From: a virus
Length of the DNA: 26,605 bases
Strand: one strand, 5' to 3'
IMG/VR virus record: IMGVR_UViG_3300001680_000216
Location: 1-26,605 of that record
Under the pieces are notes generated by a model. It had not been told where the DNA came from. It did not search any database and was given only the letters and a program-made list of their open reading frames with translations. Both the position numbers and the translations under genes were made by a program. This document shows, piece by piece, positions 590 to 21,465 of the stretch; position 1 is the first letter of the stretch, and every line of letters starts with the position of its first letter.

Positions 590-766
590 CTAGCACGGAG
601 GCCCAGTACTTGAACCTGAAACTAAGGAAATTGTCACCCAATCTCCAGGAGTTCCTGGGACACTATCCTCTATATCATCATAAAGGTGATGTCTAGGTCT
701 AACTTTAATAGATCCCGTCGATGAAGGACAACCATATATTCTTCCTGTATCAGGATCTAAAGTCTT
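590..766 (-). other. -1-frame continuation of the PAAR gene (58 codons, no start codon)
   Basis: Immediately after the PAAR gene, the -1 frame is open from 766 to a TAG at 592-590. It encodes a protein-like sequence starting KTLDPDTGRIYGCPSSTG and ending SGSSTGPPC, with alternating hydrophobic residues typical of beta-strands (for example DWVTISLVSG). No ATG, GTG or TTG occurs near its start, and an in-frame TGA at 769-767 precedes it, so it is not a separate gene. Adding one A to the AAA run at 766-768 fuses it to the PAAR protein as ...LTYEKTLDPDTGRIYG.... This would give 258 residues instead of 202. I see no classical slippery heptamer. The likeliest explanation is a one-base deletion, real or from assembly. 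Confidence 0.6.
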
Positions 767-4300: not shown

Positions 4301-4991
4301 TATCTCCCTGAGGAGGCTCATAACCTTTAGAACCCATTCCATCAATAAGGCTCCGGTCAGCACCTACCAGATCAATAGTCATTGCGGGGGGACATTGAAA
4401 AGCCGCTATACATTCACATGGAAAGTCTGGATCAACAGCGGCGGGAGGTGTTATTTCATAACATGTATTACATGGAGAACTCCCTTTACAATCATCTATA
4501 GAATCAAACTCACCCGTAGGATCTTGTACACAGGTTCTGGTGTAATAGGAACAGCGACAAATTCCGTCAGGGTCAGGACATTTACTTGCTTTGTCACAAG
4601 CAAAAGGTCCCCCCGCTAGTATTGTCTCTTCACACTTATATTTTTCTATAAGAGTAGTAGTAGTAGTAGTAGTAGTAGGAGTAGTGGTAATAGTAGTAGT
4701 AGTAGTAGTAGTAGTAGGAGTAGTGGTAATAGTAGTAGTAGTGGTAGTAGTGGTAGTAGTAGTAGTGGTAGTAGTAGTAGTAGTAGTGGTAATAGTAGGA
4801 GTGGTAGTAGTAGTAGTAGTAGGAGTAGAAGTAGTTGTAGTAGTAGTTCCTCCCCCACCAGGAGTATCTCCTGCACCCGTACCCCCATAATCTCCACCAT
4901 CAGGAGGATCGTCAGGAGGAGGGGGAGGAGGGAATACGAAACAGAGCTTTAAATCATATAACGGGTTGCCACTACCACCTTCATGTCCCAT
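1365..4991 (-). CDS. Large virion structural protein with poly-Thr linker and Cys-rich module, 1208 aa
   Basis: Domains in order: a short N-terminus (1-20), a Pro stretch (21-29) and Gly-rich segment (to 48), a tract of 57 Thr in 65 residues (49-113), a Cys-rich module with twelve cysteines (120-200), then about 1000 residues of mixed sequence that I do not recognise. The C-terminus ends EPAPGPSL. The layout of a short anchor, a long flexible or glycosylatable linker and a compact Cys domain resembles an extended surface display protein, which is inference. GAGG six bases before ATG (4998-5001) supports the start, and the upstream stop ends four bases before it. It lies between the 810-residue fibre gene and the PAAR gene and shares TAATG with the latter, so it is probably a tail or baseplate component. 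No signal peptide or membrane helix is seen. Confidence 0.85.
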   Translation of the reverse strand: MGHEGGSGNPLYDLKLCFVFPPPPPPDDPPDGGDYGGTGAGDTPGGGGTTTTTTSTPTTTTTTTPTITTTTTTTTTTTTTTTTTTTTITTTPTTTTTTTTITTTPTTTTTTTTLIEKYKCEETILAGGPFACDKASKCPDPDGICRCSYYTRTCVQDPTGEFDSIDDCKGSSPCNTCYEITPPAAVDPDFPCECIAAFQCPPAMTIDLVGADRSLIDGMGSKGYEPPQGDSLNALDVLYPPSMGGATLTIGEGTAVVWENDLKTFMGIGETLVGHNGFIDLKVPKATYEDEAYTIVENPYAWLQDEFLDIAGWSKYFDSTNPDQRKSPILGRTFFTMWWSLNGELLSRVLTRKGATLVALNAPMHGGSVFIREPSDDNDGYNAYVATGRDHSIELAFGDSFDPIKGEGSVIYGGGKIYYEGNRQFNFSEFVGGIKTKNGVYIISETKPLMMPKTSALLKVRNQQHLNTLRKFDPPFLIPAFNSKINIGSPRREWHEINPRGETKFSSHADPGFYYIASFNSPSIRNNGVIADKRYGFDLPTFEERVEVSKDFIPYINDAKLGRHLFKKISHRGVAAVLKVIEDQRSDYDPHYLFDINNNHIYQSLRADVAKVLDGLEDIGGNKLPRSFLLNAFHRMMLNNTIDNFDFNYLKDYYITHIGNINYKRPFDNIRTLEPLSVGVDSRYGFTAQMLRKQRTQSTRGKVRARTLPSFINNPDVVSTIIKNIRPLDFRKYENPDAIEKLKRWHILPEDIRLSLNFTLPNGNLVFARVKNDETLKFTIGATTYNLSANESYEVPITRGATTTYLPLDITNLQYAYSLNNEAKQKIYNSLNAQEGPVMDVKTTDTSAMLTASVADAIPNSYVLALDPTSIREEYKKHEFIRTTETTFTVTTEDKISDIVNESPFPARTYYIDYNDPILSLLEQEQKASFYFNSLTFEGFGPNLNVNLVREIPKYIRIIPTNKTKNNIFHGKSKLFTLSNAKAEALRRLVFVRGIDKELYNTGLDDPIGYKVTYPYPNQDKEGRASTIDTIDYSRVANPTALQPSVNYIDGIQPSRTTPALNTLYDVVKKLGNRFILADGLTVYDVLARLGARTYYNLFNGEIDPGVVEQVKAGNTLNMGTAATEIPWYRNTIYNNITGGGADQYMARSRLIKTRTGSTPTAYDLEVYDNYSDRSYLGRSFEELEARRVREMASIPVSDWEPAPGPSL
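4653..4847 (-). repeat. Trinucleotide (ACT/ACC) microsatellite encoding poly-threonine
   Basis: Sixty-five consecutive codons, of which 57 are Thr (nearly all ACT, with scattered ACC and one ACA), broken by four CCT, three ATT and one TCT codon. The part at 4653-4730 is a perfect tandem duplication of a 39-bp unit encoding ITTTPTTTTTTTT. A further uninterrupted run of 20 Thr codons follows at 4731-4790. Its length can change in steps of three bases without breaking the frame. Confidence 0.95.
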
Positions 4992-4994
4992 AAC

Positions 4995-7427
4995 TTACCT
5001 CAAAATAACAGTAGCAGTTCCGTTATGTGGCATTGTAGAGTTGTATAATTGGAAGCCGTTATTCTCCCAACCTGTAGGGAATCCTATAACTTCAAAAATA
5101 ACAGTAGGATAGGTACAAACCCCTACTTGATCAACAGTTATTAGCGGATTTTGATCAAGATGGGGAACATATCCTGTTGAGGAATCTCCTTCAGTCACAT
5201 TGGCTGCATTTCCAGCAGCCACACCTACAGGTGCAAGTTCTGGATATAAAACTGCCCAAGATCTGAACCTGTCAGACTGTCTGTTACAAGAGGGGAAGGA
5301 AGGAGCTTTTTCAGTATCTGTGTCCCAACCATTCCATTGTTCACCACTCTCAGTATAAGGATCAGGACCTACCCACCCCACATTAATATCAAACCATCCA
5401 CTACCTTTACTAACCCAAACACCTTCTGTTCCTCCTGACTCAAACTCTCTTGTTGTATTTCTACCAAATCCTCCTTGGGAAAGAGGAACACAATTAGACA
5501 GGTATGCTTTCACACAGTAATTAGAGAATCCTGAGGGTAGGGTAAAGTGAAATCTCTTCTTCACCCAATACATCATAAGAGGGGCAGGTAATCCATCCTG
5601 TCCTCCAGTTAACCCATTTCCTATAGTGGTTCCAAAAGAATTAGGGAATATACCATCATTGCCCCCCGTTTCTTGAAAATCCAAAGTACTACTAACAGAC
5701 ATATTCCTGTTGATAACATACTTAAAGTTAATCCAATCATTTTTATAGAGTCCCGCTCCTGCCACAGCGGGATCTAATTGTTGAGACCAAGTAGACCAAT
5801 CCCAATCAGGATCTTCAGGAACATTATTGTAGGTCATACCATAAGTTCCATTTTCTATAAAACTTGGAGAACCTAGCGCAGCATTAATAGCTCCTTCAGG
5901 TCCCCATTTCTTGCCTCCCCAAATGTACCCCCCTCCAACAACCCTGGGAACTATAGGAGGAGTAGAGTCTCCAGAACCACCCCCCGTCCCCAATGCAGTC
6001 GTTACAATAGTGTTAACATGAGTTTCCAGTTCTCTTTTACCAACCGCAGGGTTAGCAAGGGATAAACTAGGCGCGGCTCCCGCTATACCTGCTCTCTCAT
6101 CGTAAGTTAATTCTGTAGTACGGAAGAAAGGTCGAATATCAATAAGGTTAGCGGTGGGAATGGTCCCAGCCTGAGTGCTATCAACTACGACATAAGCTAC
6201 GGGAAGGACTGACTGCCCAATAGTTCTCCAATCTCCTGTTTCTAATTCATTAGCTAAGAGAGGAGCTAAATTTAGTAAATCATCAGGAGAAGGGAAAGAA
6301 CCAAAGACAGAAGTTCCATCTTTTAAAATAAAGCCTCCATTCCCTACAGCCTCATCAGCTTTAGAGGCTAACATAAACGCATCTGCTACTGAAGGATCAG
6401 TTCCATCAAGGTTCTTCACAACTTCAGCAAATTCGCCAGGACCCGTCACCTGTTTGTTTAAACCTAGTCCTGCGCCCACCACTACCCCTAATTGAGGCTG
6501 AGTTATAGAAGTGGTAGTTCCTTGTTTAATTATTGCAGCAGCCCCTTGATCCACAGGTTTGGTATAGATAAAGACTAGATCTATCCTCTGGGTAGCACTA
6601 ATTAGTGTCTTAGTACCAGCAGCATCAATATAAAAGAAATCGTTAGCATTGAACTGAGGAATATCAACGGTAATAGTCTCTGGAACATCCACAATAGCCG
6701 TTCTTGTTACTCCTCTCCATCGCTTTGTAAATTCTATAGCTATACTCTCAGTATAACTTATATTATTTTTAGAGTTTGTAAATACATTTGAAAGGATATC
6801 ATAAAATTTAGGATGATCTACAAGAGGGAAACCTGTCCACGACAGCCCATCTAAAGTAGTGGATGCAATTGGAGTAGTACCCACCCCTACTTGATCTCCT
6901 AATGCCACACTATAAACAGGATACTCAGAGAATCTCTCAATTAAACCATTCAGTCTTAGAGCATTAGAACTACTATAAATTTTATTTACGGCTGTTTGTA
7001 CTGCTCCAGGATTCTTTGTAAACCAATTGGAACCTTGACCAAGATAAGTGGAATTTGCATTAAAATCTGGCTGACTGAGGGCCTCATCCAAAGTAAAGGC
7101 ATCATTTACTCTAGCAGAGAATCTACCAGCCTCTACTGAAACTGTAGATCCAGCCACCGTAGGACGCAGATCGGCAAAGTTAGCTCTTTGAACATTCCCT
7201 GTCCCCATCTTCCCCGCACCTACTCCCCCTAAAGGACCTCCTCCTCCCCCTGTCGCTTGCTCAGTTCCTCCCCCCATTAAATACTCTACCTGATCCTTAA
7301 GCCATAAGCAGTTCTGTTCAAGCTGCTCAATAGGGATGTTATCTACTTCCCAGTAATAAGGGTCATTAGCTTTATATCTCCTAACAGGAGCGGTAAAGAG
7401 AAAAGGAGTATTTGTAAATTCAGGCAT
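4995..7427 (-). CDS. Tail fibre or baseplate-attached protein with shared N-terminal docking motif, 810 aa
   Basis: The N-terminus (about 18-53) carries YYWEVDNIPIEQLEQN, closely resembling FYNWEQDNIPLYDLEER in the preceding 1276-residue protein. I read this as a common attachment segment to the baseplate. A Gly-rich linker (52-70) follows. The middle contains segments such as LIDIRPFFRTTELTYDERAG (about 430-450). The last 300 residues are rich in aromatic residues, Gly and Asn (GGYIWGGKKWGPEG and onward), typical of beta-rich fibre heads, but no named fold is recognised. The start codon overlaps the previous stop as TAATG, and no convincing Shine-Dalgarno is visible, so translation probably depends on reinitiation after the upstream gene. 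Tail fibre is the best call; a wedge accessory protein is the alternative. Confidence 0.8.
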   Translation of the reverse strand: MPEFTNTPFLFTAPVRRYKANDPYYWEVDNIPIEQLEQNCLWLKDQVEYLMGGGTEQATGGGGGPLGGVGAGKMGTGNVQRANFADLRPTVAGSTVSVEAGRFSARVNDAFTLDEALSQPDFNANSTYLGQGSNWFTKNPGAVQTAVNKIYSSSNALRLNGLIERFSEYPVYSVALGDQVGVGTTPIASTTLDGLSWTGFPLVDHPKFYDILSNVFTNSKNNISYTESIAIEFTKRWRGVTRTAIVDVPETITVDIPQFNANDFFYIDAAGTKTLISATQRIDLVFIYTKPVDQGAAAIIKQGTTTSITQPQLGVVVGAGLGLNKQVTGPGEFAEVVKNLDGTDPSVADAFMLASKADEAVGNGGFILKDGTSVFGSFPSPDDLLNLAPLLANELETGDWRTIGQSVLPVAYVVVDSTQAGTIPTANLIDIRPFFRTTELTYDERAGIAGAAPSLSLANPAVGKRELETHVNTIVTTALGTGGGSGDSTPPIVPRVVGGGYIWGGKKWGPEGAINAALGSPSFIENGTYGMTYNNVPEDPDWDWSTWSQQLDPAVAGAGLYKNDWINFKYVINRNMSVSSTLDFQETGGNDGIFPNSFGTTIGNGLTGGQDGLPAPLMMYWVKKRFHFTLPSGFSNYCVKAYLSNCVPLSQGGFGRNTTREFESGGTEGVWVSKGSGWFDINVGWVGPDPYTESGEQWNGWDTDTEKAPSFPSCNRQSDRFRSWAVLYPELAPVGVAAGNAANVTEGDSSTGYVPHLDQNPLITVDQVGVCTYPTVIFEVIGFPTGWENNGFQLYNSTMPHNGTATVILR
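4998..5001 (-). promoter_or_regulatory. Shine-Dalgarno GAGG for the 1208-aa gene
   Basis: TTGAGGTAAGTTATG on the minus strand: GAGG overlaps the last Arg codon and precedes the TAA stop of the 810-residue gene, six bases before the next ATG. Confidence 0.6.
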
Positions 7428-10400
7428 TAGTCTTGTTTATTCAAATCAAATTCATCTGCTGACAGGAATCCTTTTCCTGCTAGAGCGGCTTCAGACTCCG
7501 CTCCTTCCCCAGCATAAGTGGTGGTGGAGGTCTTCATAGTAACTATTTTAGGTCTACCTGAGATGCCTAGAGTTCCATTCTTTGCATTAGCGAAAGTCGC
7601 CATGCCAGATTCATCAAGTCTAATTCTGGCTTCATAACCCTCAGGAAGGAGATCTTTGGTGTAAAAGAAATCTGCCTCTTTATAATGTTTAAAGAATGGT
7701 TTCCCGTATGCATAAGCATAAGCACCTGTCCAAGCGGATTGATATCCAGGGAATCCATCGGCTCTATTAGTACTACTAGTACCTAAATCCTCCCTCCCAG
7801 GAGCGTAGGGGTTGAATACCCCAGTTCCATCCATTATCATTCCTTGTGCGAAAATTGCTGAAGTATAAAGTCTAGCATCTCTTGCTGTTCCCCACGGAGA
7901 GGTATCAAACAACGCTGAAGCATGGAGAGAACTAAAGGATACTTCTCCTTGAATCCCACTAGGAGCAGTTGTTCCAGCCCCATAAACGCTATAGGTATCA
8001 GGACCTTCCCCAAAGGTCTCTGTATTTAATAGTACCGAAGAACAAGGCCCAGACATATTATACCCCTGAGCAACAGTTTGATAAATAATACTTGTTTCTT
8101 TATCAGATTCAGGGGGAGCATAATAAGGACCTCCGTGTACGGTTTTTGGGCCTCCTTTATACACTAAATATTTAGCAAATCTTTTAGGAGATCCGTAGAA
8201 TCTAAAAGCTCCAAAATTCTGACCAGCGGTATTCCCAGAAGCACCAAAACCATCAAGAACACTCATAGCACTTGTAATCCAGGTGCTATCAGGAGCATTA
8301 ACAGCAGCCGCAAAGCCTCCCTCTGTGTATACCGCAGAAGGACCATTGTAACCCACAAGAGGGGGGAAATGTCCACTTACAGACACAAAAGACATATCTA
8401 ATTTAGAACTCTCATCTACATTCCAGATTCTTAATTGATTACATCCTTCAGTATCTGCGGTATTGTAATCATAATATAGGGAGGAAGTATTATTCCAACC
8501 CGCAGGGAAATTGACATTTCTCACATTAATTCGACTTCCCTTCATTCCCCGTACACACATTCCCCCAAAAGAAAGAGCAGTAACATCATTAGTAGTTGCT
8601 CCATCCCCTCCTGACTTGAGGGGGAAACTTTGAATATCACTCATAATTCTACTATAAGCAGTTGGATTTATAGTAGCTAAGGTATCATCTAATTGAGGAT
8701 TGGGATAGAATTGAATAGACCCATTAGCGATAGCGGTTGAAGTTTCAAAAGTATCATAATTGGCACCTAAAACTAAGCTAGAAGCATACCAGTCATCACT
8801 CCCTTCTATAGCATAATCGGCTGCTCCTGAAGCCCATTGACCATTAAAGTCTCCACAGTCCTCCATGTTAATAACAGAATTATTATCAGCCACCAAACAA
8901 GCTCTAGTAGAGTGGAGATCTACCTTAGTTTGATTTTGAGCGGTTCCACTTAAATCCCATTGTTCCTGATCTATAAACCCAGAATCATCTTTAGGAGGAG
9001 CTATATCTAGAATAGAATCATTATCAACTAATACATCCACTCCAAATCTTATTAGAAGAGTAGGACCATTCATCGTAAGTCTAGAAGTGTTAGTTACATA
9101 TGCCCCAGCATTATACTGTTGCTTTGCATATTCCTCAGGACCATCCAATAAAGTGAATTTATTCTCTCCTCCTACAAGTGTGCATGTTGAGTTATTTTTA
9201 ACTAATAAACAACTCCCATAATTAGCATTAGAAGTTCCTCCTCTACTACCAGAATCTGCTCCTCCTGGCTTCCCTGCTCCTGCTCCGAAACTAGTCCCTG
9301 TTTGAGTCCTAATTCGTGCAAAGGTCATTTTAAGGTCAGAGTTATTATCACAAACGATGGCAGGAACAGATAGCGCGGGAACCTCTTGACCTGGAGATTG
9401 TCCATGATTTCTACTGAATTTATTCCTAGCTAATCCTGCGCCCAAGCTAAGACTGGGATGGAACATCTTAGAGTTTTCTAATATGATATGTTGTCCATTA
9501 CTATCAAAGTTAACCATTCCTGGATAATCAAGCCAGTACCAGAAGTTAGTAATATTAGCGAAGGGAATCTCAGGAGAATCATCGTTCAAATCTCTAACTG
9601 TTTTTTCTACTATATCAGGTGCATTCTTAGCATATTTTAATTGGGAATTATTTAGATGAAGTCCTAAAGTTTGTTGACAATCGACATACAATTCATCTAT
9701 ATTGATCTTACTATTGAAGGCTTCAATGCCCGTATCGTGTTGCCAAACATCAATAGCTCCATCTAAGTCTATTTTGGAACCAACCATACTAATACCTTTA
9801 GTCTGGTTTTCATAAACCTGCAAAGAGGTCATGCTGTTGGTATAAGTAGCAGCTTTTCTCTTGCCTCCTCCTGTTAGAGTAGAGTTATGCATCAAGATCC
9901 CATTAGTTCCATTCCTAGTAGAAGCGAAAAGGGCTCCTCCACCGCTTGCTCCGTAGACATCCATAGTGCTTAATTGAACATTGGAATTGAATAATCTAAA
10001 TCCTGCGGCATTAGGGTCTGTTATCCTTACGGAATCCGTAGCTGTGTTGGAGGATAAGCCATAATTCCTATACGCAACTGCTCCTCTACTCAAGATCACA
10101 TCACTATTATTAAACTCAAATCCTGCCTCCAAACATCTCATAGCCGCACAATGTTCTAGCACAACCTCAGAATTGGTTACTTTAATCCCCACCTCAGTAC
10201 TATACGAAGCAGGAGTAGCTACTCCTAAAGCTCCGTCCACAGCAAAGTTTCTTATATAGATCTTACCACCACAATTGTTTACTTCTAATTTTCTTAAATA
10301 ATTCCCATAAAAAACACCAACACACGGATGATCATAAGCAGGATCATCGTCTTGCAGGTCTTCTCTCATCATGCGAGTGCCTGTAATCCCATTAGCTATT

Positions 10401-11257
10401 GAAGAATAGTCATAAGCGGATACTGAATAATCATTAGCAAACCCATAAGGAGTACCCCCAATATTATTTGCTGCTGGGAACAAATCAGCTACAGCACTCT
10501 CATAAAGTATCGCTGACATTCTAGCGGTTTTTACTTGTTTAGTTGTTGCTGCTTCTTTTCCGTTTACTACTTGAGCAAAGGTTATATTATTATCGTCATA
10601 CCTAGCATCATCAATTACCCCTGCTCCTGCTCCTGCCGAATTCTGTACCACAGCAGTATTAATGTCTAGAGCAGAAGTAGCTAGTAGAGTATTAAGTAAG
10701 TCTGTAGACTCTGTTCTTCCAATATAAGGTGTATTGTCCGTACTCATACTCCCCGCTGCCGTTCCTTTTACGCTTATTTGGGGAAAGGAGGAAGGACTTG
10801 CAGCATCATACTCACCTGGATTAATCGGAGAGAAGTTTCTATTAACAATTTCTAAAGCACCACTTGAGGTAAAATGTATATTGTTAAGAATCAAATCCCC
10901 TAAGTCTCCAAAATTAGCCACCTCAATCCGAATAGGATAACGGATAATGTCAGGGAGGGCATGGAGAGCAGAGCTTACATCTAAAAATAGGTTAGGGTTA
11001 TTAGCAAACTCATCGGTGCCTATAGCGTCCGCAGAGACACTAAAAATAACACCGCTTACTTGAGGAGGACCCGAAGTAGGCCATCCCGATTTCTCCCAAA
11101 GATAATAGGTTCTTTCCTCTAGGTCGTAGAGGGGAATATTATCCTGCTCCCAGTTATAAAAGGAACTAGTATCAAACTTCTCCACCCCAGGAGTCCAACT
11201 ATGGAGGATCTTATTATCACCCCCAGCTACATAAATATCTTCACTATGAAATCCCAT
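7427..11257 (-). CDS. Beta-helix tail spike/fibre protein, 1276 aa
   Basis: The N-terminal 60 residues hold the docking motif YNWEQDNIPLYDLEER (34-49). From about 360 to 955 the chain repeats a coil signature [N/T/D/G]-S-x-hydrophobic-x-hydrophobic at least fifteen times, for example NSEVVL, NSDVIL, NSNVQL, NSKINI, NSQLKY and NSVINM. This is the pattern of a right-handed parallel beta-helix (pectin-lyase-like) with an Asn/Ser ladder, the fold of many phage tailspikes that bind or cleave surface polysaccharide. The last 300 residues differ and may form a trimerisation or receptor-binding end. No catalytic residues can be assigned by eye. The start ATG lies one base after the TAA of the 190-residue gene (TAACATG), without a clear Shine-Dalgarno. 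I am confident of a fibre/spike role, less so of enzyme activity. Confidence 0.85.
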   Translation of the reverse strand: MGFHSEDIYVAGGDNKILHSWTPGVEKFDTSSFYNWEQDNIPLYDLEERTYYLWEKSGWPTSGPPQVSGVIFSVSADAIGTDEFANNPNLFLDVSSALHALPDIIRYPIRIEVANFGDLGDLILNNIHFTSSGALEIVNRNFSPINPGEYDAASPSSFPQISVKGTAAGSMSTDNTPYIGRTESTDLLNTLLATSALDINTAVVQNSAGAGAGVIDDARYDDNNITFAQVVNGKEAATTKQVKTARMSAILYESAVADLFPAANNIGGTPYGFANDYSVSAYDYSSIANGITGTRMMREDLQDDDPAYDHPCVGVFYGNYLRKLEVNNCGGKIYIRNFAVDGALGVATPASYSTEVGIKVTNSEVVLEHCAAMRCLEAGFEFNNSDVILSRGAVAYRNYGLSSNTATDSVRITDPNAAGFRLFNSNVQLSTMDVYGASGGGALFASTRNGTNGILMHNSTLTGGGKRKAATYTNSMTSLQVYENQTKGISMVGSKIDLDGAIDVWQHDTGIEAFNSKINIDELYVDCQQTLGLHLNNSQLKYAKNAPDIVEKTVRDLNDDSPEIPFANITNFWYWLDYPGMVNFDSNGQHIILENSKMFHPSLSLGAGLARNKFSRNHGQSPGQEVPALSVPAIVCDNNSDLKMTFARIRTQTGTSFGAGAGKPGGADSGSRGGTSNANYGSCLLVKNNSTCTLVGGENKFTLLDGPEEYAKQQYNAGAYVTNTSRLTMNGPTLLIRFGVDVLVDNDSILDIAPPKDDSGFIDQEQWDLSGTAQNQTKVDLHSTRACLVADNNSVINMEDCGDFNGQWASGAADYAIEGSDDWYASSLVLGANYDTFETSTAIANGSIQFYPNPQLDDTLATINPTAYSRIMSDIQSFPLKSGGDGATTNDVTALSFGGMCVRGMKGSRINVRNVNFPAGWNNTSSLYYDYNTADTEGCNQLRIWNVDESSKLDMSFVSVSGHFPPLVGYNGPSAVYTEGGFAAAVNAPDSTWITSAMSVLDGFGASGNTAGQNFGAFRFYGSPKRFAKYLVYKGGPKTVHGGPYYAPPESDKETSIIYQTVAQGYNMSGPCSSVLLNTETFGEGPDTYSVYGAGTTAPSGIQGEVSFSSLHASALFDTSPWGTARDARLYTSAIFAQGMIMDGTGVFNPYAPGREDLGTSSTNRADGFPGYQSAWTGAYAYAYGKPFFKHYKEADFFYTKDLLPEGYEARIRLDESGMATFANAKNGTLGISGRPKIVTMKTSTTTYAGEGAESEAALAGKGFLSADEFDLNKQD

Positions 11258-11258
11258 G

Positions 11259-11831
11259 TTAGAAACTTAATGTCCATTTAAATATGAGAGAAAACTCCTC
11301 TTTTTTGGTAATATTATTAAAAGTCTTGTAAGCCACTAGTATTGGACGATCAGCGTCCGCATATCCTGTTGGATTCTTCATCAACAGACCTATCTCATTC
11401 AAAGTAACTTCATTTGCCGTCCCTGTATCTAGGGTTAAAGTATACTGAACAGAGTTAACAGCTACTCGTCTAATCATCTCCTGAGAAATAAGAACCATAT
11501 CCTCAGTTTCAAGAGACCCGTCTTTGATTTGTGATAAAGTATGAATAGCTAAAGATGAGGTATCATACTGTGCGCGACTTAATTCATCCTGTAATGTAAA
11601 AGTAGACAATCCGTAAGTTGTCCAAGCATCTTCTCCTAATTGAAAGTACTTAATTTGAAAATTATTTATAGTATCCGAACCAGTCCCTCCAAACAGTAAG
11701 GCTAAACCCACTCCCATCCCTGAAACAATAGTGTTGTGATCAGAGTGAACTAACTCTAGTTCTCCATCAGCATACTCTTTCCAAATCTCTAAGTATCCTG
11801 AGGCTCCTAATTCTTCTATAAATCTACCCAT
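11259..11831 (-). CDS. Stand-alone copy of the shared tail adaptor domain, 190 aa
   Basis: This short protein lines up from end to end with the N-terminal 210 residues of the 707-residue neighbour. Shared marks are an N-terminal strand pair ending in HNTIVSGMG (32-40), then IKYFQLGEDAW (60-70), NEIGLLMKN (145-153) and a final strand FSLIFKWTLSF (180-190). The 377-residue protein has equivalents. It thus appears to be the minimal version of a domain used in three adjacent genes, probably a virion adaptor or plug on the baseplate edge. The start at 11831 lies 19 bases after the previous stop with only a weak AGG upstream. No named family is recognised by eye. Confidence 0.8.
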   Translation of the reverse strand: MGRFIEELGASGYLEIWKEYADGELELVHSDHNTIVSGMGVGLALLFGGTGSDTINNFQIKYFQLGEDAWTTYGLSTFTLQDELSRAQYDTSSLAIHTLSQIKDGSLETEDMVLISQEMIRRVAVNSVQYTLTLDTGTANEVTLNEIGLLMKNPTGYADADRPILVAYKTFNNITKKEEFSLIFKWTLSF

Positions 11832-11850
11832 AAAAATATATACCTATCTT

Positions 11851-13974
11851 CTAACTAAATTGATCATACCAACTATCGTATTCCTTCATTAGAGTAACTG
11901 TCCAATTTGCTCTGTCCCTGGCACTAAGCTCCTCCATATTATAGTTCCAAATTACAAATACATCTGTGCTTCCTTCTACAAAATTACTTCCTGGAGTAGT
12001 TATACTAGTAGGAGCATAATTGGTGAAAACACTTGATGGAGCTTCTTGACCAAGATAATTAGACAACTGATCCCATAATTGTTTTCCTTGCATCTCATCT
12101 CGCATATCATTAGCTAATGCTGAGGTATCCTTGTAATGACTATTTATTAGACCTAAACCACTTGCTTGTCTGAGGGTAGCATCCGATTGAGGAGGAGCAG
12201 CCCAAAAACTAAGATTTACATTGGGTTCAGTTACATCCCCCATATCAATATATGAGTTATTTGTATAATCTAGTAATTTAAAATTATTTCCAGTTGCACC
12301 GAAATCAGGATATCCTGTCCATGTAGATCCCGATAAGGAAGATCCAGCATAAGAAAAATGCCCATACACATGTTCATTATTGGGATGCCCCCAATAAGTA
12401 CCTGGAAAATTCGCATCCACAACAGAACTTGTAGACGAGGCTTGATGAGAAGCAGACCAAAACTGTTTAGTGCTTAAAGGAACTTCAACCCATTGGAAAT
12501 GAGATTTTAAATCAGGAATAGCAGACCAATAAAATCCACTAGCTTCTGTGAAATTTGCGTCTGTAAAAATATAAGAGCTAGTGGACCCTATCCCACTTAG
12601 AGAACTACTCTGCCAATTGTCCACAGAATAATTGGAAGTTGCTGACGATTCCATTCTTCCATAAATACTGGTACTGTATGTAGACCCCATCATCTTCATA
12701 GCTTTTGGAAGTGTAGCCATTTTAAAATCAAAGGTGCTGAGAGTATAAGGATACCACCTAGACCAATCAGTAACAGCATCTTTTACTGAAGTACCTAATA
12801 CGCGAGAGGAACACACTTCAAAATCTCTTCCTAAAGTACTATTACAATCAGCCGTATAAGCTACAAAGGAAGCCAAGCTTCCTCCTATCCCGTTCCCCAT
12901 TGTGAAGACATTAGAGGGATTAATTCCCCAGTTTGTGGCTCCGTAATATTTCGCCCATTGTACAGAGCTAACTGCATCAGTAAAGCAGTTTTCAATACCA
13001 CTAGGCATCCTAAAGGGCTGTGTAGAGGACGGAAGCAGCGCATTGTTATCGTCTACCGCACTAGTAAAAACTCTACAGGCTGAAATATTATCATCATCTA
13101 CAAACCTGTAATCAAAGGATGCTATGGATATACCATTAGAGAGCAGTCTCTGAAATAATCTAGTTTCTATATTATCTTGCTTTCGACTTACAAAATCAGA
13201 GTACTTAGTATAAGGAGCATTATTGGCGGTAACATTTGGGAAATAACAAACTAAAGCATTTCCATTAGGGTTAGTAGCATTAGCTCTCCAAAAATTATAA
13301 TTTGAACCAACCTCATCAGGGGTTACATCAATTACTGCCCCAGTATTAGTTGAAAGAACCCACTCTAGCTGTAGCTGAAAATCTTTACTTTTAGGAATAG
13401 GAGTAGCTACCCCCGATCCATCTGTTATACCGAAGGACTTATACGCTGCTAACTCCAGGAGATAGTTCTCATCCTTCTTAGCTTTATTATAGAATAACCC
13501 CGCTTCACAAATATTCTGCCCATTGAGAGTATTTTCATCAATTAGAATTGTAAAGATAACCTTATCATCAGCAATTTTATTTATTCTATTATCATCTAAC
13601 TCTAAAAAGGTTCCAGTAACTTCAGTTAAAGAAGGAGGGTCATAAAATGGGTTTATGGCTGATACTTGATATTCAGTTTTAAAATTAAGACTAGTATGAA
13701 CCCCATAATCAGTAATCGAAAAGGGAGAAGACAACTCATAGAAATAATTAGTGGTATAATCAGTCTGCGAACTCGCTCCCAATTGTAACCATCTCAGTCC
13801 CATATCCTGTACAAGAGTGCCTGGGGGAAAGTTCCCCATCATAATATCTGCTAGAAATGAAGCTAACCCTATGGTAATGATATTTTCTTTATCTATCACC
13901 ACCTCATCTGGTCTATCATCTACAAATAGTTTAGTTACTGTCAGGTGTCCATTTATACTAGATTTAGGTTTCAT
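11851..13974 (-). CDS. Tail protein with adaptor domain plus degenerate alpha/beta-hydrolase (esterase-like) domain, 707 aa
   Basis: Residues 1-210 are the adaptor domain shared with both neighbours (KENIITIG 29-36, RWLQLGASS 61-69, CEAGLFYNK 156-164, DFQLQLEWVLS 198-208). From about 235 the sequence follows carboxylesterase/feruloyl-esterase-type alpha/beta hydrolases: strand ALVCYFPN, LLSNGISIASFDYRF (277-291), then a DAVSSVQWAKYYG helix and WGINPSNVFTMGNGIGGSLA (349-368). In active enzymes the last segment reads GxSxGG; here it is GNGIGG with Gly362 (codon GGG, 12891-12889) at the nucleophile position. The usual HGG oxyanion motif near 243-250 is also absent. The fold is thus recognisable but the usual chemistry is not, suggesting a glycan-binding pseudoenzyme. 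It overlaps the upstream gene by ATGA and has a GGAGG upstream. Confidence 0.8.
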   Translation of the reverse strand: MKPKSSINGHLTVTKLFVDDRPDEVVIDKENIITIGLASFLADIMMGNFPPGTLVQDMGLRWLQLGASSQTDYTTNYFYELSSPFSITDYGVHTSLNFKTEYQVSAINPFYDPPSLTEVTGTFLELDDNRINKIADDKVIFTILIDENTLNGQNICEAGLFYNKAKKDENYLLELAAYKSFGITDGSGVATPIPKSKDFQLQLEWVLSTNTGAVIDVTPDEVGSNYNFWRANATNPNGNALVCYFPNVTANNAPYTKYSDFVSRKQDNIETRLFQRLLSNGISIASFDYRFVDDDNISACRVFTSAVDDNNALLPSSTQPFRMPSGIENCFTDAVSSVQWAKYYGATNWGINPSNVFTMGNGIGGSLASFVAYTADCNSTLGRDFEVCSSRVLGTSVKDAVTDWSRWYPYTLSTFDFKMATLPKAMKMMGSTYSTSIYGRMESSATSNYSVDNWQSSSLSGIGSTSSYIFTDANFTEASGFYWSAIPDLKSHFQWVEVPLSTKQFWSASHQASSTSSVVDANFPGTYWGHPNNEHVYGHFSYAGSSLSGSTWTGYPDFGATGNNFKLLDYTNNSYIDMGDVTEPNVNLSFWAAPPQSDATLRQASGLGLINSHYKDTSALANDMRDEMQGKQLWDQLSNYLGQEAPSSVFTNYAPTSITTPGSNFVEGSTDVFVIWNYNMEELSARDRANWTVTLMKEYDSWYDQFS

Positions 13975-15104
13975 ATAAAATACATCCTCCAGACTATAGT
14001 TAGATCTCTATAATTAAACGCACCAGGCCAGAAATCATCACCCGTATCCCGTGCAATATTCGTCTTACATATGTTTTCTAATAAACTCTTTTTAGAAAAT
14101 AACCTATACTTTTTGGGATTAACAATATTTAAAAATGCAAAAGGAGGATTATTTTCCTTTAATGCAGAACATAGGTCCATGCTCCACAATCCTATATTAT
14201 ATATTCCACCGTACAAATTGGCTGTTCCCAGGTCTCCACTTCCTATTAATACCTTATAAGCAATTTCTCCTGTATTAGAAGTATGATAAGGATCATTTGT
14301 TGTTGTATTTGCAGATACTGTTAGTCCAGACCATCCTGAGGAAATATAATCATCTGTAGTAGAAGACCCTACAAAATTAACAAATCCTTGGATATCCATA
14401 GAACCTACTTGATTAAATAAACTATTGTAAGTTCCTGCATACATTACTTCTGTAGGTGCTCCGGTAAGGGGGATATTGGAATCAGAACTCACAACATAAA
14501 ATTGTGAACCCCCTGTGCTACTTCCTTCGGGATAACACCCAAACACCGCTCCCAAGGAGGAAAGGTTTCCTAGAGTTCCTAATATAGAAGACGCATACGG
14601 TATTACATTCAAGTTATGTCCTACATCCTCTACATTAGGAGTAAGAGAAAGTAGAGTAGTTTCTGTTGGGGTATATACCCCAGAGGGGAGAGTATTTTCT
14701 TCCAAGCTAGTTTGACGAGGAGTTACAAAGGAGGGTAGGAGCTTTCCTGCATCGGTAGGAACATAACTGGATGTTACTAAACTAGATCCCGAAGCAATCG
14801 CTAATACTCTAATTAAATTTGCATTACTGGTCTGGTTAATAACTTTGTTAGGAACTGCGTCACCCCATGCATGTCCATGCTTCCTGTAATGATCTGAAGC
14901 AGTTCCAAAAGATATAGCTTGAATAGTATAATTAGAAGTATCTAAGATAGCAGATAGATCAGGAATAGAAGAGAGACTTGCAGGAGCGGTCATTATATCA
15001 GCTAATAATTCTCCCGCACCATCTACAATAGTGTTCTTCCCTTCCATTACAAGTTCTTGGTCTTCGTTACCAAAACTTTTATATACTTCTATCTTTCCTA
15101 TCAC
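13971..15104 (-). CDS. Tail protein with shared adaptor domain, 377 aa
   Basis: First of three consecutive genes with the same N-terminal architecture: IGKIEVYKSFGNEDQELVM, then GKNTIVDGAGELLADIM (22-38) and IQAISFGTASD. These correspond to the NTIVSGMG and IITIGLASFLADIM segments of its neighbours. Near the C-terminus YNIGLWSMD and a final strand LTIVWRMYF mirror EIGLLMKN and LIFKWTLSF, so the domain is kept whole but interrupted by an insertion of about 200 Ser/Gly/Thr-rich residues that may form a beta-rich head. The start is GTG (15104-15102), chosen because AGGAG lies nine bases upstream (15114-15118). Its stop overlaps the next ATG. It is likely a baseplate-peripheral virion protein; function is otherwise unknown. 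Confidence 0.8.
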   Translation of the reverse strand: MIGKIEVYKSFGNEDQELVMEGKNTIVDGAGELLADIMTAPASLSSIPDLSAILDTSNYTIQAISFGTASDHYRKHGHAWGDAVPNKVINQTSNANLIRVLAIASGSSLVTSSYVPTDAGKLLPSFVTPRQTSLEENTLPSGVYTPTETTLLSLTPNVEDVGHNLNVIPYASSILGTLGNLSSLGAVFGCYPEGSSTGGSQFYVVSSDSNIPLTGAPTEVMYAGTYNSLFNQVGSMDIQGFVNFVGSSTTDDYISSGWSGLTVSANTTTNDPYHTSNTGEIAYKVLIGSGDLGTANLYGGIYNIGLWSMDLCSALKENNPPFAFLNIVNPKKYRLFSKKSLLENICKTNIARDTGDDFWPGAFNYRDLTIVWRMYFI

Positions 15105-15110
15105 TCTTTA

Positions 15111-18100
15111 TTACTCCTGTGGACTCATTCCTTCTACAAACTCTACTAGAGTATAAGTTTTAGGAGACGCTCCTACTGTCCAAGCAGTTCCGTCTGGGGA
15201 TGTGGTGATATCATCATAATAAGTATAGGTTCCCCATGTAGGATGATACCTGTAGTTCAATCTACTCCCTCCGCTTGCCTCAAAAATACCTGAACTATCC
15301 GCTGCAATTCTCGTAGCATAACCATCTCCTAAGCTTGAAGCAGAAATACTATTTAAATATTTAAAGTAAATTCTATAATCATCTACTCCTGTCCTCGTAA
15401 CCACCTCAGAATGAACAGTTCCTAAATCATCAATATACTCTACCGTAAATTCATCAAGAGTAGTTCGTTCTAATGTCTTGTCTATTATAGATATATTTTC
15501 AAAAACATAGTCTACAATATCACTAGTAACTTCTCCTCCGAATGATCTCAACATTATTTCTACGACATATCTCTGATCACTTCGATGAACAAAAGTGGGT
15601 TGATATGCTTTTGGTTTTGGAAGGAACATGCCTGATTTTCTATACTGTTTATTACTTGTATTGAAAGGAATTTTATAAGTATTAAAATGTTCTTCTCCTA
15701 AATTCTCAATAGCAGTAACAGCAAGGGAAGGAGGTAATGAAAAAGTAGTACACAAGGTATCTCTTACCCCATACTGAAACGCTTCTGGAGCCGCGTCCCC
15801 ATCTGTAAGGGGTAATACTGTGTTGTCTCCTGAACAGGAGATCCACTCCCCATTATAATAAGGATTCGAATAATTCCATGATTTCCCAAATTGCGTATCT
15901 GTCTCTCTACTGATCCAAGACCAAAACATATTGTCTTCTGGCATAGTATGGATCCATACTCCGAAAGGCACCACAGGAACAGCATCTATCCCATACCTAG
16001 CTAAAGTTAATGAGAGTTCATAATCATGGTCAGGGAGAAGAAGATTACCAGAAGTAGTGGTTGACCCAAAAGCCGATAAATCGAATCTAATTCTCGCATA
16101 ATTATAGAAGGAAGAATTACCACTACATTGAACATCTAGAAGCCCTTTACCTGTAAGGTAAGACGCTATCGCAGGATTATCCTCTCCGTACTTCGGAGTA
16201 GTTCTATACATTTTAAATCTAGGACTAGCATTTACTTTGGTAGGTCCTCCTACTGAATCATAATATTCGGGAATTGAATATCTACAGAATTCGATACCAC
16301 TAAATCCATAAGGATACCTCATCTCTCCCTCTTCACAGTCCCCAGGCCACCCCACAACAAGCTTTCCTTCACACGATCCAGCACTTGCATCAGCCCCTGC
16401 ACCACTCATATCCTGATAGCTCAAACCTTGATATCCAGCCTGAGTAAAGGAGGAAGCTATAAACGAGGTAGCAGAACCATCTTTAGTGAAGTTACCATTA
16501 TAAACTAAAGGTCCATAGATGTGAGAGAATATATTTCTCCCTCCATGAGCATCAAATCCACTCACCAGATAGGGAGCCGTACCATGTCTACCAAATTCTT
16601 TAGCATAACGATTATAAGCTTCCTGTATTCCAGACCCAAAAGTATAGTCTGCATACTCATACCAACTACTAACTCCATTAAACGCACTATTAGCAAGAGA
16701 ATTTATAGGATCCATCCAGGAAGAAGAGGTCTGCCAAGCTGAGGAAACATCTTTGAAATTATCATAAGCCTCTCGATAAGCATCCTTCTCCATAGTACGA
16801 TGCATAACTCTTAGAATTTCAGGAAGCTCTTCTCTCCTTACATACTCTAAACATCCTCCTGCTGCCAAGGTGATGTTAGGGGCTAAAGCTCCTCTCCAAG
16901 GGAAAGTCCAAGAGGTATCAACTCCAAAAAAGGTACGAGGAGAAGTACTAGTTTCACAGTAATCCCAAACGGGATGGAGGGAGGAAACAGAACCTGTAGT
17001 GAAAGGAGTCTGGAACCCACATCCAGAATAATTATATCCGAGAGTTAGGGCTCCTCCTCCTGATGCACCAGTATGGGGATCAAAAGTAGAAGGAGTATAG
17101 CTATTGGGCATATTAAACCCAGTCCTATCAAAGAAGCCATTTCTAGGTACATTATTATATAAGTTTCTTCTTCTTAAATTATTTCTAGGTGCATAGTTCC
17201 CAGAAGCAACATTCCCATCCCCAGTTAATAATATATCAGTTACACTATCTACAAGTCCCCTGGTAACTCCAGTAGAAGAAATTCCAGGCCCCAAGCCTAT
17301 AGTATCGGCAGCCATAGCCATGTTTACGCCTGAGGCATCCCAAGCATTAACTACAGTACTACTTGTTACTAAATCTTTTGGAGTAAAAAATACAGTAGGA
17401 CAAGCATACAAAAAGTTAGAAACATCATCAAATGCTTGAAGAAATACTTTTGCTCTAGGAATTGCATGGGCAGGAATAGTTTTATTTAATCCAATTAAAG
17501 AATGGTAAATACCTAGAGAAGTTTGAGGAGTAGATGTCTTTTTAGAGAAAGATTGAGAGCCAGCACTCAAATGTAAATCAAAGTGAGAGGACTTTGAACT
17601 CCATAAAGATAAATACTGAGATTTAGTATTAGAAATATCCGTTAAGATATCTGTAAAATTAAAGGGCTCTTCAAATCCAGAGGTATATAAAACAAAAGTA
17701 TTTCCTATTTCTATATCATCACTAGAGGACACACTCTTAGAAAGAATATACTCTACTGCGGAAGAGATATAGTTTGAACTAACATCTAAATCAAGTAATG
17801 ATTTTTCAAGATTCAGCATCAAGGGTTCGGATATTCCCACCCTCTCGTAGTAGCGTATCTCTTCAAAAGGGGGAATATCATAGAGTCTATCTCTATAATA
17901 AAATTTAAAATCGGGGTCTCCAGGGGGAGGAAAGATCCCATCTCCCAATAAAAAACTATTGGGATGAGAAATCCATAAATCTCTTAGAACTTTATCTACA
18001 CATCTTCTTATATTTGAATCAACACTTGATAAACTATAGTCGGGAACGACTGCTCCAGTTTCATCTGTGTATGTTACCCCCAAATCTTGAGCTAAAGTAG

Positions 18101-19388
18101 GAGTCCATAACGCAAAAGGATCATCTTTATAACCCCCCTTATTAAAATAGGGAGACCCTGTAGCCAACAAGTAATAAATTAAAAAGGGTACATAAGACTC
18201 ATGTAATTCATACATGGAGGAAGATAAACTAAATCCACTATCTCCAAATAGAGTATCTATCGCTAATTGAGTAGAAAGTACTGTCCCTTTAGCTTTATAG
18301 ATTCTAAGAGCATTTCTAATCTGGGATCTCCATCTTGAAGGATCACTTCCTATTAGATCCCATCCAATTAACTGAGACAAGTAGGGTAAATACTCAGAAG
18401 GGCAACTATCAATCTCATACAGAGATTCTAACTTCTCTACAGAAGAGTTAATATCCTGATATACATATCCCAGTACTTTTACAAATTTAGTAAACGGTCC
18501 TGCGAAAGCTTCAGCAGGAGAATAAGTTCCGAAAGTGATATAATCTTCAAAAGTTTCCTTAACCTTAAAGTCTGATCTATCAGCATAACCATCGGAATAC
18601 AACACCCCTAGAAGAGTTTTAAGTCGATCTAGCTCTTGTGTTCCACTAGTATAAGTTTGTGTTCCTGATAGATAATTAGTAGGAATTAACTCTAAAGAGG
18701 ATACCAAGGATAAAGTAGGATAGTTTCTCCACAAATACTCCTCAAACCCTGTAATTCCTTCTAAAGTTCCTAAGCTCTTACCTAAGAACAATTCCGATAA
18801 TCTGTCTAACACGAAGGAAGAAGGATTATAATCCCCATTAGGAACAGACGAAGTGTTTAGTAAGTAAAACCACCCAAGAGAATTAATATAGTATTCGTGA
18901 AGGGCTGATCCATCTACTCCATAAGCGGTCGCTGCTACTTTAGTTCCCTTTGGGGTAGGGATAGAGGAAGTAAAAAAGTTTAACTTAATAGAAGGGAGTA
19001 ACTGTTCTTCCAAATAGTTTCTCCATTGTGCGCTTGTCTCAAAAGACTCCATCTGGAATCCGAGAGGGTCTAGTATATCTCGTTCAAAAGTGAAGGGAGT
19101 GACATCAGTAAGATTATTTTGCTTTACAAAAAAAGGATAAATCCCTGATATGTTATCAATTTCAGCAAAATTGGGAGTGGCTGAGATAGGTAGAATTCTT
19201 CCTATACGGTCTGCTGCCAGGAGATGTGTTTTTAATAAGGAATCCAGAGGGTCTAGCTCTAAGCCACTTACTTCAAAATCCTTAATCCTATAAACAGAAG
19301 GTATAATTTTTTCTAGAGCTTCTGAATAATTTCTCTTAAAATAGGTTTTTTGAGTAGGATCAAAAAGTTTAAAGTTAACCTCAGCCAT
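15111..19388 (-). CDS. Giant baseplate wedge / tail protein I-like protein, 1425 aa
   Basis: The gene directly follows gp6 (TAATG overlap, AAAGG upstream), where T4-like phages place wedge gene 7 and P2-like phages gene I. Residues about 305-385 carry the tail-protein-I-type segment: LESLYEIDSCPSEYLPYLSQ, IGWDL, WRSQIRNALRIYKAKGT and LAIDTLFG. This segment links the wedge to fibres in P2-like tails. The N-terminus (1-120) looks like a wedge-type domain. The remaining 1000 residues include a basic RRRNLYNNVPRNGFF segment (around 755-770) and beta-rich, aromatic-rich stretches such as FGVWIHTMPED, suggesting built-in peripheral or carbohydrate-contacting domains. At 1425 residues it is far longer than P2 gpI and longer than T4 gp7 (1032). 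The wedge role is well supported by segment and order; functions of the C-terminal two thirds are unknown. Confidence 0.8.
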   Translation of the reverse strand: MAEVNFKLFDPTQKTYFKRNYSEALEKIIPSVYRIKDFEVSGLELDPLDSLLKTHLLAADRIGRILPISATPNFAEIDNISGIYPFFVKQNNLTDVTPFTFERDILDPLGFQMESFETSAQWRNYLEEQLLPSIKLNFFTSSIPTPKGTKVAATAYGVDGSALHEYYINSLGWFYLLNTSSVPNGDYNPSSFVLDRLSELFLGKSLGTLEGITGFEEYLWRNYPTLSLVSSLELIPTNYLSGTQTYTSGTQELDRLKTLLGVLYSDGYADRSDFKVKETFEDYITFGTYSPAEAFAGPFTKFVKVLGYVYQDINSSVEKLESLYEIDSCPSEYLPYLSQLIGWDLIGSDPSRWRSQIRNALRIYKAKGTVLSTQLAIDTLFGDSGFSLSSSMYELHESYVPFLIYYLLATGSPYFNKGGYKDDPFALWTPTLAQDLGVTYTDETGAVVPDYSLSSVDSNIRRCVDKVLRDLWISHPNSFLLGDGIFPPPGDPDFKFYYRDRLYDIPPFEEIRYYERVGISEPLMLNLEKSLLDLDVSSNYISSAVEYILSKSVSSSDDIEIGNTFVLYTSGFEEPFNFTDILTDISNTKSQYLSLWSSKSSHFDLHLSAGSQSFSKKTSTPQTSLGIYHSLIGLNKTIPAHAIPRAKVFLQAFDDVSNFLYACPTVFFTPKDLVTSSTVVNAWDASGVNMAMAADTIGLGPGISSTGVTRGLVDSVTDILLTGDGNVASGNYAPRNNLRRRNLYNNVPRNGFFDRTGFNMPNSYTPSTFDPHTGASGGGALTLGYNYSGCGFQTPFTTGSVSSLHPVWDYCETSTSPRTFFGVDTSWTFPWRGALAPNITLAAGGCLEYVRREELPEILRVMHRTMEKDAYREAYDNFKDVSSAWQTSSSWMDPINSLANSAFNGVSSWYEYADYTFGSGIQEAYNRYAKEFGRHGTAPYLVSGFDAHGGRNIFSHIYGPLVYNGNFTKDGSATSFIASSFTQAGYQGLSYQDMSGAGADASAGSCEGKLVVGWPGDCEEGEMRYPYGFSGIEFCRYSIPEYYDSVGGPTKVNASPRFKMYRTTPKYGEDNPAIASYLTGKGLLDVQCSGNSSFYNYARIRFDLSAFGSTTTSGNLLLPDHDYELSLTLARYGIDAVPVVPFGVWIHTMPEDNMFWSWISRETDTQFGKSWNYSNPYYNGEWISCSGDNTVLPLTDGDAAPEAFQYGVRDTLCTTFSLPPSLAVTAIENLGEEHFNTYKIPFNTSNKQYRKSGMFLPKPKAYQPTFVHRSDQRYVVEIMLRSFGGEVTSDIVDYVFENISIIDKTLERTTLDEFTVEYIDDLGTVHSEVVTRTGVDDYRIYFKYLNSISASSLGDGYATRIAADSSGIFEASGGSRLNYRYHPTWGTYTYYDDITTSPDGTAWTVGASPKTYTLVEFVEGMSPQE
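15114..15118 (-). promoter_or_regulatory. Shine-Dalgarno AGGAG deciding a GTG start
   Basis: CAGGAGTAATAAAGAGTG on the minus strand: AGGAG overlaps the last Glu codon of the 1425-residue gene, is followed by its TAA stop, and lies nine bases before GTG at 15104. The next in-frame ATG is much further in, so GTG is the likely start. Confidence 0.7.
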
Positions 19389-21007
19389 TAGATACCTTTT
19401 ACATTAATTACAACATTATTCAATTGAATTACTTCATTAAATTCAATATGGATATTGGTATCCACATTATCCACTTCTGCAAATCTTACATCATCAACCT
19501 TAGTAAAAATATCTCTAGTAAAGTCTGTTAGAATAAAGGGGTCTTCAAAATCAAAATTTTGAGTATTAAAATATCTAAGAACAGCATCTCTAGTTTTAGA
19601 TTTTATTTCTTCCTCTCTAGGAAGTAAATTTTTATCCACAGAAATAGCCATAACTAAATCTAAAGATCTCACTACCCCATCTACAATAACGATTTCATCT
19701 GTTAACATCTTCTTTTCCTGTAAGTGGGCTAACAACTCCATTTTAAAGGAAGTAGTGGCTTGCTGCAACTGAATGTCACTAGCCCTCTCCAAAACATACA
19801 CATCAATCGTATTAGCTGAACTATATGCTTTGCGTACCGCAGCCGTTACTTTTCCTATAGTCCCGTAGCTGGAAATAAACTTGGCTCCCCGCGCAACATA
19901 GTCCTCTAGAGTTACAAGTCTATCTTGTGATTTAAAAAAGAGAGGAGCATATTTTTTGGCATGAGATACACTCTCTGCGTTAGATCCTCCTGTAGCAAGA
20001 GAAGTATTTTCTATAGTCGCAGGTAGGGTGTTTCCTGCATCCCCATCAATCTGACCAGTAGTTAAAGCATTAATAAAGCTTTTTTGAACATTCCCTCTAG
20101 TACCCCCTCCTATTCTATAAGATACTTCATAGCTGGACCCTACAGGAGGAGAAATACCAGCAATGTTATCACCAAAAACAATAGTGCCTCCAAAAGAATC
20201 ATTTAAATTAACTTGAAAAATCCTATCGGTAGCCCCAGAAGCAAAATAAATGCTCTCTACTTGTGTAAAAGCTCCAGAAGCAGCAGGAACACCAGGGGCA
20301 TCAACAAAGACCTGAATACTTCCCTCAATAACAGGACTCTGGTTTAGAGTTAAAGATTTAATACTATCATAGGAGGTAAAAGTTCCCTTATCTACCACTA
20401 ACGCTCCTTCTAATAAGGCTGCATTACTCCAAATAGCAGGATTAGCGGGATCATTAGCTTCTTCTTTATTCATATAAATGGTAGAATTAGAATTGGCTCC
20501 CGAAATTCTTCCTGCTTCTACTTTATAGAGAGTATAAGTTACTTGCCCCCCATCTTCAGGAGATGCAATGGTAAGTGTTCTATTTGCAGGAGGTATAACA
20601 AGGGAATTCTGTCCCGCAGTCAGGGCTGTACCTATAGTAATCGTAGCGTTTGCAGCCGCAGCTAACGGTCCTCGCATTCTAACCCCAACCAATTCTAATA
20701 GTTTTCTTACATTATTTCTATTACGAGCAGTTGCTAAGAAGCTTTCATTCGCTAACATATCAGCCTTCAAGGATAATACGGCTCCCATATAAGCTACTAT
20801 CTCCACTAACATTATCCCCAGATCAGACTCAGAAAAGTTCTGATAATCTAAGGGATATACGGCTTTTATATATTCAATTATAGAATTTCGCATAGACAGA
20901 AAATCAGTAGATTCATAATCAATTAAGGTATCCTTCCTATCATCAGGAATGATTACCTTCTTCATGAAGTCTGAGGCTACTTCTCCTGTAAAATTAGACT
21001 GGCTCAT
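19388..21007 (-). CDS. gp6: Baseplate wedge protein, gp6 / baseplate-J family, 539 aa
   Basis: gp6 (J in P2) forms the ring of wedge dimers that holds the contractile baseplate together. Typical features are DLGIMLVEIVAYMGAVLSLK followed by ANESFLATARNRNNVRKLLE and the GVRMRGP turn (62-114), YRIGGGTRGNVQ (297-308), and the hallmark ESVSHAKKYAPLFFKSQDR followed by LVTLEDYVARG (345-374). The C-terminal part (about 400-539) has the alternating strand-helix pattern of the family. Length is in the usual 450-660 range. ATGA overlap with the gp25 gene and a GGAG upstream fix the start at 21007. gp25 upstream and the 1425-residue wedge protein downstream give the conserved 25-6-7 order. Confidence 0.95.
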   Translation of the reverse strand: MSQSNFTGEVASDFMKKVIIPDDRKDTLIDYESTDFLSMRNSIIEYIKAVYPLDYQNFSESDLGIMLVEIVAYMGAVLSLKADMLANESFLATARNRNNVRKLLELVGVRMRGPLAAAANATITIGTALTAGQNSLVIPPANRTLTIASPEDGGQVTYTLYKVEAGRISGANSNSTIYMNKEEANDPANPAIWSNAALLEGALVVDKGTFTSYDSIKSLTLNQSPVIEGSIQVFVDAPGVPAASGAFTQVESIYFASGATDRIFQVNLNDSFGGTIVFGDNIAGISPPVGSSYEVSYRIGGGTRGNVQKSFINALTTGQIDGDAGNTLPATIENTSLATGGSNAESVSHAKKYAPLFFKSQDRLVTLEDYVARGAKFISSYGTIGKVTAAVRKAYSSANTIDVYVLERASDIQLQQATTSFKMELLAHLQEKKMLTDEIVIVDGVVRSLDLVMAISVDKNLLPREEEIKSKTRDAVLRYFNTQNFDFEDPFILTDFTRDIFTKVDDVRFAEVDNVDTNIHIEFNEVIQLNNVVINVKGI

Positions 21008-21465
21008 TTTATTGTTACTCCAACGGCAAAGATCGTATTATTTAGCTCTACAGCAGATAAATATAAAGTTATGTCTAACCCCATTCCACCTTCTACGTTC
21101 ACTACATCGGATTCAGTAACCACTATTTTCTGAATAGAGACCCCTGGGAAGAAGGTATTAATAGAATTTATAATTTCATATTTGATATTGATAAATAATT
21201 CTTGAGTTAAAGGTTCAAATAAAAATTTCCTAAGACTTAATCCAAACTGGGGAAACATAACCCTTTCTCCTTTTTCGGTAAGGAGAAGTTGTTCTAGATT
21301 ATTTTGTAATAAAGTTATACCAGTTTGTTTATGGAAGTCTCCTGCTCCCTTTTTCTTTCCTGTTGGGAAGGCTAGGCCATAGTTTTCCTTACTTCTAGAA
21401 GTTAATTCTAAACTAATCTGCTTCGGAGGATTAACTCCATATAAAGTTGTACTTGTTTGTCCCAT
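21004..21465 (-). CDS. gp25: Baseplate wedge protein, gp25 / W family, 153 aa
   Basis: gp25 (W in P2, TssE in T6SS) is the small lysozyme-fold wedge subunit that links the baseplate to the tail sheath. Diagnostic segments are GITLLQNNLEQLLLTEKGER, then MFPQFGLSLRKFLFEPLTQ (about 69-87), followed by a helix (EIINSINTFFPGV) and two C-terminal strands. The family usually has 130-160 residues, and this one has 153, so it looks complete. A 30-residue basic N-terminal extension precedes the core. The start shares bases with the upstream stop (TGATG) and lacks a strong Shine-Dalgarno, implying coupled translation. Confidence 0.95.
   Translation of the reverse strand: MGQTSTTLYGVNPPKQISLELTSRSKENYGLAFPTGKKKGAGDFHKQTGITLLQNNLEQLLLTEKGERVMFPQFGLSLRKFLFEPLTQELFINIKYEIINSINTFFPGVSIQKIVVTESDVVNVEGGMGLDITLYLSAVELNNTIFAVGVTIK

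Follow-up and report, generated by a model that had tools for sequence, protein, structure and literature searches.

The gp707 gene of virus record IMGVR_UViG_3300001680_000216 encodes a tail protein with an esterase-like domain in which glycine occupies the position of the catalytic serine, raising the question of what such a domain does on a phage tail. A preliminary description of this DNA had left two answers standing, a tail-borne esterase or a pseudoenzyme that might have been repurposed to bind glycans. The whole 26,605-base record was analysed and is called the window here; going by the IMG sample series, the host bacteria are probably marine.

Genomic setting and architecture of gp707

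The minus strand of the window carries a contractile-tail baseplate module that includes an OB/DUF2345 spike-like protein, gp25, a gp6/J-type protein, a Tail_P2_I-type protein and PAAR; the gp707 gene belongs to this run, with the Tail_P2_I-type protein on one side and a series of large tail proteins on the other. Its reading frame and the motifs named in the preliminary description were found where that description had placed them.

21004-21465, minus strand: gp25, baseplate gene run
19388-21007, minus strand: gp6/J-type protein, baseplate gene run
15111-19388, minus strand: Tail_P2_I-type protein, baseplate gene run
13971..15104, minus strand: gp377, tail protein adjoining gp707; a homologue in relative L009 holds an inserted RCC1-type propeller
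11851..13974, minus strand: gp707, 707-aa tail protein (scaffold domain plus putative pseudo-esterase domain), an ORF of the baseplate gene run
11259..11831, minus strand: gp190, bare scaffold protein, paralogue of the gp707 scaffold, with homology to gp707 residues 8-208
757-1395, minus strand: PAAR, baseplate gene run

Other tail proteins of the window have features of their own. Near the N-terminus of the 1208-aa protein at 1365-4991 (minus) lies a long low-complexity stretch rich in threonine (TTTTTTTTP repeats), and the adjacent large proteins at 4995-7427 and 7427-11257 (both minus) have in common an N-terminal motif of the DNIP-x-x-x-L-E type; at least 185 stretches of viral contigs hold relatives of the protein at 7427-11257, which had no match among isolate phages. 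In the 1023-aa tail protein gp1023 (21465-24536, minus), PF13385 (E=4e-7) marks a lectin domain of the concanavalin type; similarity to relatives is low in its first 250 residues.

Within gp707 the scaffold domain is followed by a C-terminal region of 494 residues, and the parts of the protein are the following:

13336..13974, minus strand: N-terminal tail scaffold domain, residues 1-213 (26% identity, E=1e-7, to gp190)
13231..13239, minus strand: invariant Pro-Asn-Val, residues 246-248 (four homologues), in the region where esterases carry HGG, equivalence uncertain
12715..13335, minus strand: alpha/beta-hydrolase-like half, residues 214-420 (Pfam, NCBIfam and hhalign over ~274-376; dN/dS about 0.10 and 0.07)
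12880..12897, minus strand: degenerate nucleophile elbow GNGIGG, residues 360-365 (codons read, Gly in four homologues, profile alignments)
11854..12714, minus strand: C-terminal half, residues 421-707, without recognisable relatives, with invariant His530 and His539

The phrog_5417 profile gives E=0.27 against gp707 itself and E=5.8e-10 against its paralogue gp190. In related viral contigs the scaffold is carried by 90 distinct ORFs, 81 of which are bare (about 180-260 residues); the other 9 bear a long, variable C-terminal extension, and since these extensions differ in kind, the scaffold serves as an anchor for different modules. A module swap is also seen near the gp707 locus in L009, among whose ORFs no gp707 homologue was found: its gp377 homologue (L009:15423-18368) has ~650 extra residues of RCC1-type propeller repeats placed between two gp377-matching parts.

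Resemblance to esterases

The esterase resemblance of gp707 is better than chance and is limited to residues ~274-376. The Pfam family BD-FAE (PF20434) matched the whole protein with E=2.7e-4 and the domain with E=1.5e-4, at scores of 20.9-21.8 bits that lie under the curated cut-off of 26.8 bits; Abhydrolase_3/HSL (PF07859) gave E=9.4e-4 and 5.7e-4, respectively, at 19.4-20.1 bits under a cut-off of 25 bits. The NCBIfam model of the acetylxylan esterase AxeA1 matched gp707 with E=4.1e-4, and the top PDB matches were esterases, each of them individually non-significant. Matches from the three libraries meet at residues 321-379.

Because the Pfam scores fell under the curated cut-offs, a profile-profile comparison was run as a test. 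Using hhalign, the four-member gp707 family (see below) was aligned with nine HSL-type esterases, namely E. coli aes and eight plasmid-borne relatives, with P=5.5e-5, whereas in the controls, for which the family was reversed, its columns were shuffled (60 shuffles) or other window families took its place, P was 0.049 or worse. The two distant homologues L011 and L012, neither of which matched a Pfam hydrolase family when taken singly, together gave a weak P=0.019 in the same register. The match runs upstream of the elbow loop, taking in the DAxxxxxW helix and the strand before the loop. The order of elements is that of BD-FAE and Abhydrolase_3/HSL: a strand, the DAxxxxxW helix (DAVSSVQW, residues 333-340), the INPxxV strand (WGINPSNVFTMG, 349-360), the elbow glycines (GNGIGG, 360-365) and the following helix; the motif SIASFDYRF is at residues 283-291. 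Unlike those families, gp707 has extra residues between strand and helix, glycine in place of serine, no HGG and a C-terminal half that is unrecognisable.

Beyond about residue 380 gp707 resembles nothing recognisable, and the C-terminal half compared with the esterases gave P=0.86; the hydrolase pattern that had been described over residues 235-420 thus stands for ~274-376, and the wider span was somewhat generous. AlphaFold2 models were unusable, both for full gp707 with two sequences (pLDDT 25.7) and for the domain with four homologues and six viral esterase fragments (pLDDT 31.6). Judged from the alignments, the whole domain may adopt an alpha/beta-hydrolase fold.

Loss of the catalytic motifs

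Neither of the two signatures of HSL-type esterases, the HGG oxyanion motif and the G[DE]SAG elbow, is present in gp707. The codon of Gly362 reads GGG at 12889-12891 (minus), as had been proposed, and in all 40 of the 40 subsampled profile alignments this residue was aligned to the catalytic serine of the esterases. The small residues of the elbow, Gly360 and Gly364, are retained, and the nucleophile position is Gly362 rather than Ser, Cys or Asp. The string HGG is absent from the whole protein, in agreement with the earlier observation. Pro246-Asn247-Val248 was considered as a replacement of HGG at the same place; we do not claim this, since extended profile alignments put it one strand earlier.

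Homologues and selection

Viral contigs yielded three further phages with the domain, one of them close (L002/L003, 79% identity) and two distant (L011 and L012, 44% and 42% identity over the domain), so that the known family consists of four members only, in two pairs. No relative was found in scans of bacterial genomes; tblastn of gp707 against isolate phages returned nothing meaningful, and neither did tblastn of the domain against plasmids, where the lone match (E=0.1) was located in an autotransporter.

None of the homologues keeps the GxSxG serine: the elbow reads G-N-G-[I/F]-G in 4 of 4, with glycine at the nucleophile position throughout, and no invariant serine exists among the four between residues 337 and 389. 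These results speak against the tail-borne esterase and in favor of the pseudoenzyme, the more so as the glycine is accompanied by strong purifying selection. The strongest constraint was found in the elbow segment, with dN/dS values of 0.059 (window versus L003) and 0.072 (L011 versus L012), whereas the C-terminal half evolves faster (0.27 and 0.18 for the same pairs); the reading frames are open in all four phages. A sequencing error at Gly362 was rejected because independent contigs share the glycine. The non-catalytic elbow is therefore fixed and maintained, and the loss is old, probably predating the divergence of the four phages; as the same loss has been kept in three related phages, a conversion into a binding or building part is probable, rather than an accidental breakage.

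Sulfatase modules in related phages

In L011 (5979-8405) and L012 (5973-8408) the polypeptide is longer than in the window, and just past the end of gp707 it passes into an S1 sulfatase that matches PF00884 over the cut-off (E=5e-29 and 2e-27, respectively), with the CSPTR/CTPTR signature and other family motifs intact. In L093 (ORF 5708-8995) a related sulfatase with CTPTR (PF00884, E=2e-24) is joined straight to the scaffold, indicating that the hydrolase-like domain is optional. A sulfatase is also found at the C-terminus of a homologue of the lectin-like gp1023 in L164 (1718-aa ORF, reverse strand); in L165, also on the reverse strand, two overlapping ORFs, of 1118 and 667 aa, share this gp1023-sulfatase fusion between them, through a frameshift or an assembly error. 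The S1 sulfatase module, with its C-[ST]-P-T-R intact, is portable: it follows the bare scaffold, the scaffold with the pseudoesterase or a gp1023 homologue, and its junctions are clean.

PF00884 was present in 6 of 39 related records, and tblastn found no sulfatase trace in the window. The sulfatase-bearing proteins of L011 and L093 had no match among 50,697 isolate-phage records, and the unnamed phrog_19870 matched the sulfatase part weakly. Eight related contigs, all of them fragments, were searched for a formylglycine-generating enzyme, and none was found; among the papers searched, none matched on virion-borne sulfatases.

Alternative explanations

Four other readings were weighed. The similarity could be local convergence, residues 350-376 belonging to another alpha/beta layout such as a Rossmann-like nucleotide loop that was never an esterase, a reading we consider unlikely. 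GNGIGG does fit GxGxxG, the hydrolase similarity ends at about residue 380 and no usable AlphaFold2 model was obtained; nevertheless, four FAD/NAD proteins compared by hhalign gave only P=0.19 over the full length and 0.05 for the N-terminal part, while the esterases scored better, not only with all nine but also in four-member subsets (P=2.8e-4 to 0.011). Furthermore, the esterase match extends through the upstream strand and the DAxxxxxW helix, L011 and L012 alone fall in the same register and have GNGFGS, a string that does not fit GxGxxG, and a nucleotide-binding family was returned by none of the libraries searched. A serious rival, although we would not expect it to be the right one, is that the domain is a spacer or presentation platform whose fold is kept for its geometry, for instance to hold the sulfatase in the relatives, with no ligand bound. 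The position of the module between scaffold and sulfatase in L011 and L012 favors such a role, as does the L093 sulfatase placed directly on the scaffold; against it, the domain is terminal in the window and in L003, where it has nothing to present, and constraint peaks around the former active site.

That gp707 is still an enzyme with its nucleophile elsewhere appears quite improbable. Candidates exist, since all four homologues share 29 serines, 9 aspartates and two histidines, and these two, the only invariant histidines of the family, His530 (12385-12387) and His539 (12358-12360), might act with another Ser or Asp; still, the stretch from 337 to 389 offers no invariant serine and HGG is lost too. 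In known catalytic alpha/beta hydrolases the elbow residue is Ser, Cys or Asp. As for the decay of what was once a tail esterase, which the loss of both catalytic motifs could suggest, we give it hardly any credence: it is rejected because dN/dS is low (about 0.06-0.10 in the hydrolase half), and the frames are open in four phages that have the same change across 42-44% identity.

A probable tail-anchored, non-catalytic module

Going by what was observed, namely the architecture, a conserved loss of the motifs, selection on the domain and a sulfatase fused to it in two relatives, we lean, with some reserve, towards the C-terminal region of gp707 being a non-catalytic alpha/beta-hydrolase-like module, anchored to the tail, that binds, recognises or presents a ligand of the host surface and does not hydrolyse it. 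The N-terminal scaffold domain would hang the module on the tail or baseplate, where it would probably be exposed on the virion. Before the four phages diverged, the nucleophile serine would have been changed to glycine and the HGG oxyanion loop lost, selection keeping the altered elbow since then. The former substrate pocket, or the rim around it, may bind a host-surface ligand, probably a polysaccharide, and in two relatives the C-terminal S1 sulfatase could supply the catalytic step; this neighbour hints at a sulfated polysaccharide as the ligand.

Esterase folds without a functional triad are known in neuroligins and other non-catalytic cholinesterase-like adhesion proteins, which act in surface recognition (PMC5943944, PMC2570956). 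These are animal proteins from another branch of the fold (carboxylesterase type B), and the parallel to gp707 is one of working mode only. The plant gibberellin receptor GID1 evolved from HSL-type esterases through the loss of a catalytic residue (PMC3531792); it lost the histidine, kept the serine and binds a small hormone, whereas in gp707 the serine position is Gly. SGNH domains have been described in phage tail proteins (PMC11823257), and the tail proteins of Acinetobacter, Pectobacterium and Klebsiella phages with SGNH-type deacetylase/esterase domains are, as gp707, modular with an esterase-related domain; those domains are of another fold family, and activity has been reported or proposed for them, while gp707 is without a canonical nucleophile.

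A bolder proposal, which we find possible but doubtful, is that gp707 is an esterase turned tail adhesin, a viral counterpart of neuroligin or GID1. The phage lineage would employ it either in exchange for or alongside an active S1 sulfatase borne on the virion, so as to recognise sulfated polysaccharide on the host surface and unmask it. Tail-borne esterases and depolymerases are already familiar; if the reading holds true, gp707 would illustrate plainly how an enzyme can be remade by a phage into a recognition module that selection maintains, and the recurrent sulfatase module with its intact signature leads to a concrete, testable hypothesis on the ligand, a sulfated host polysaccharide.
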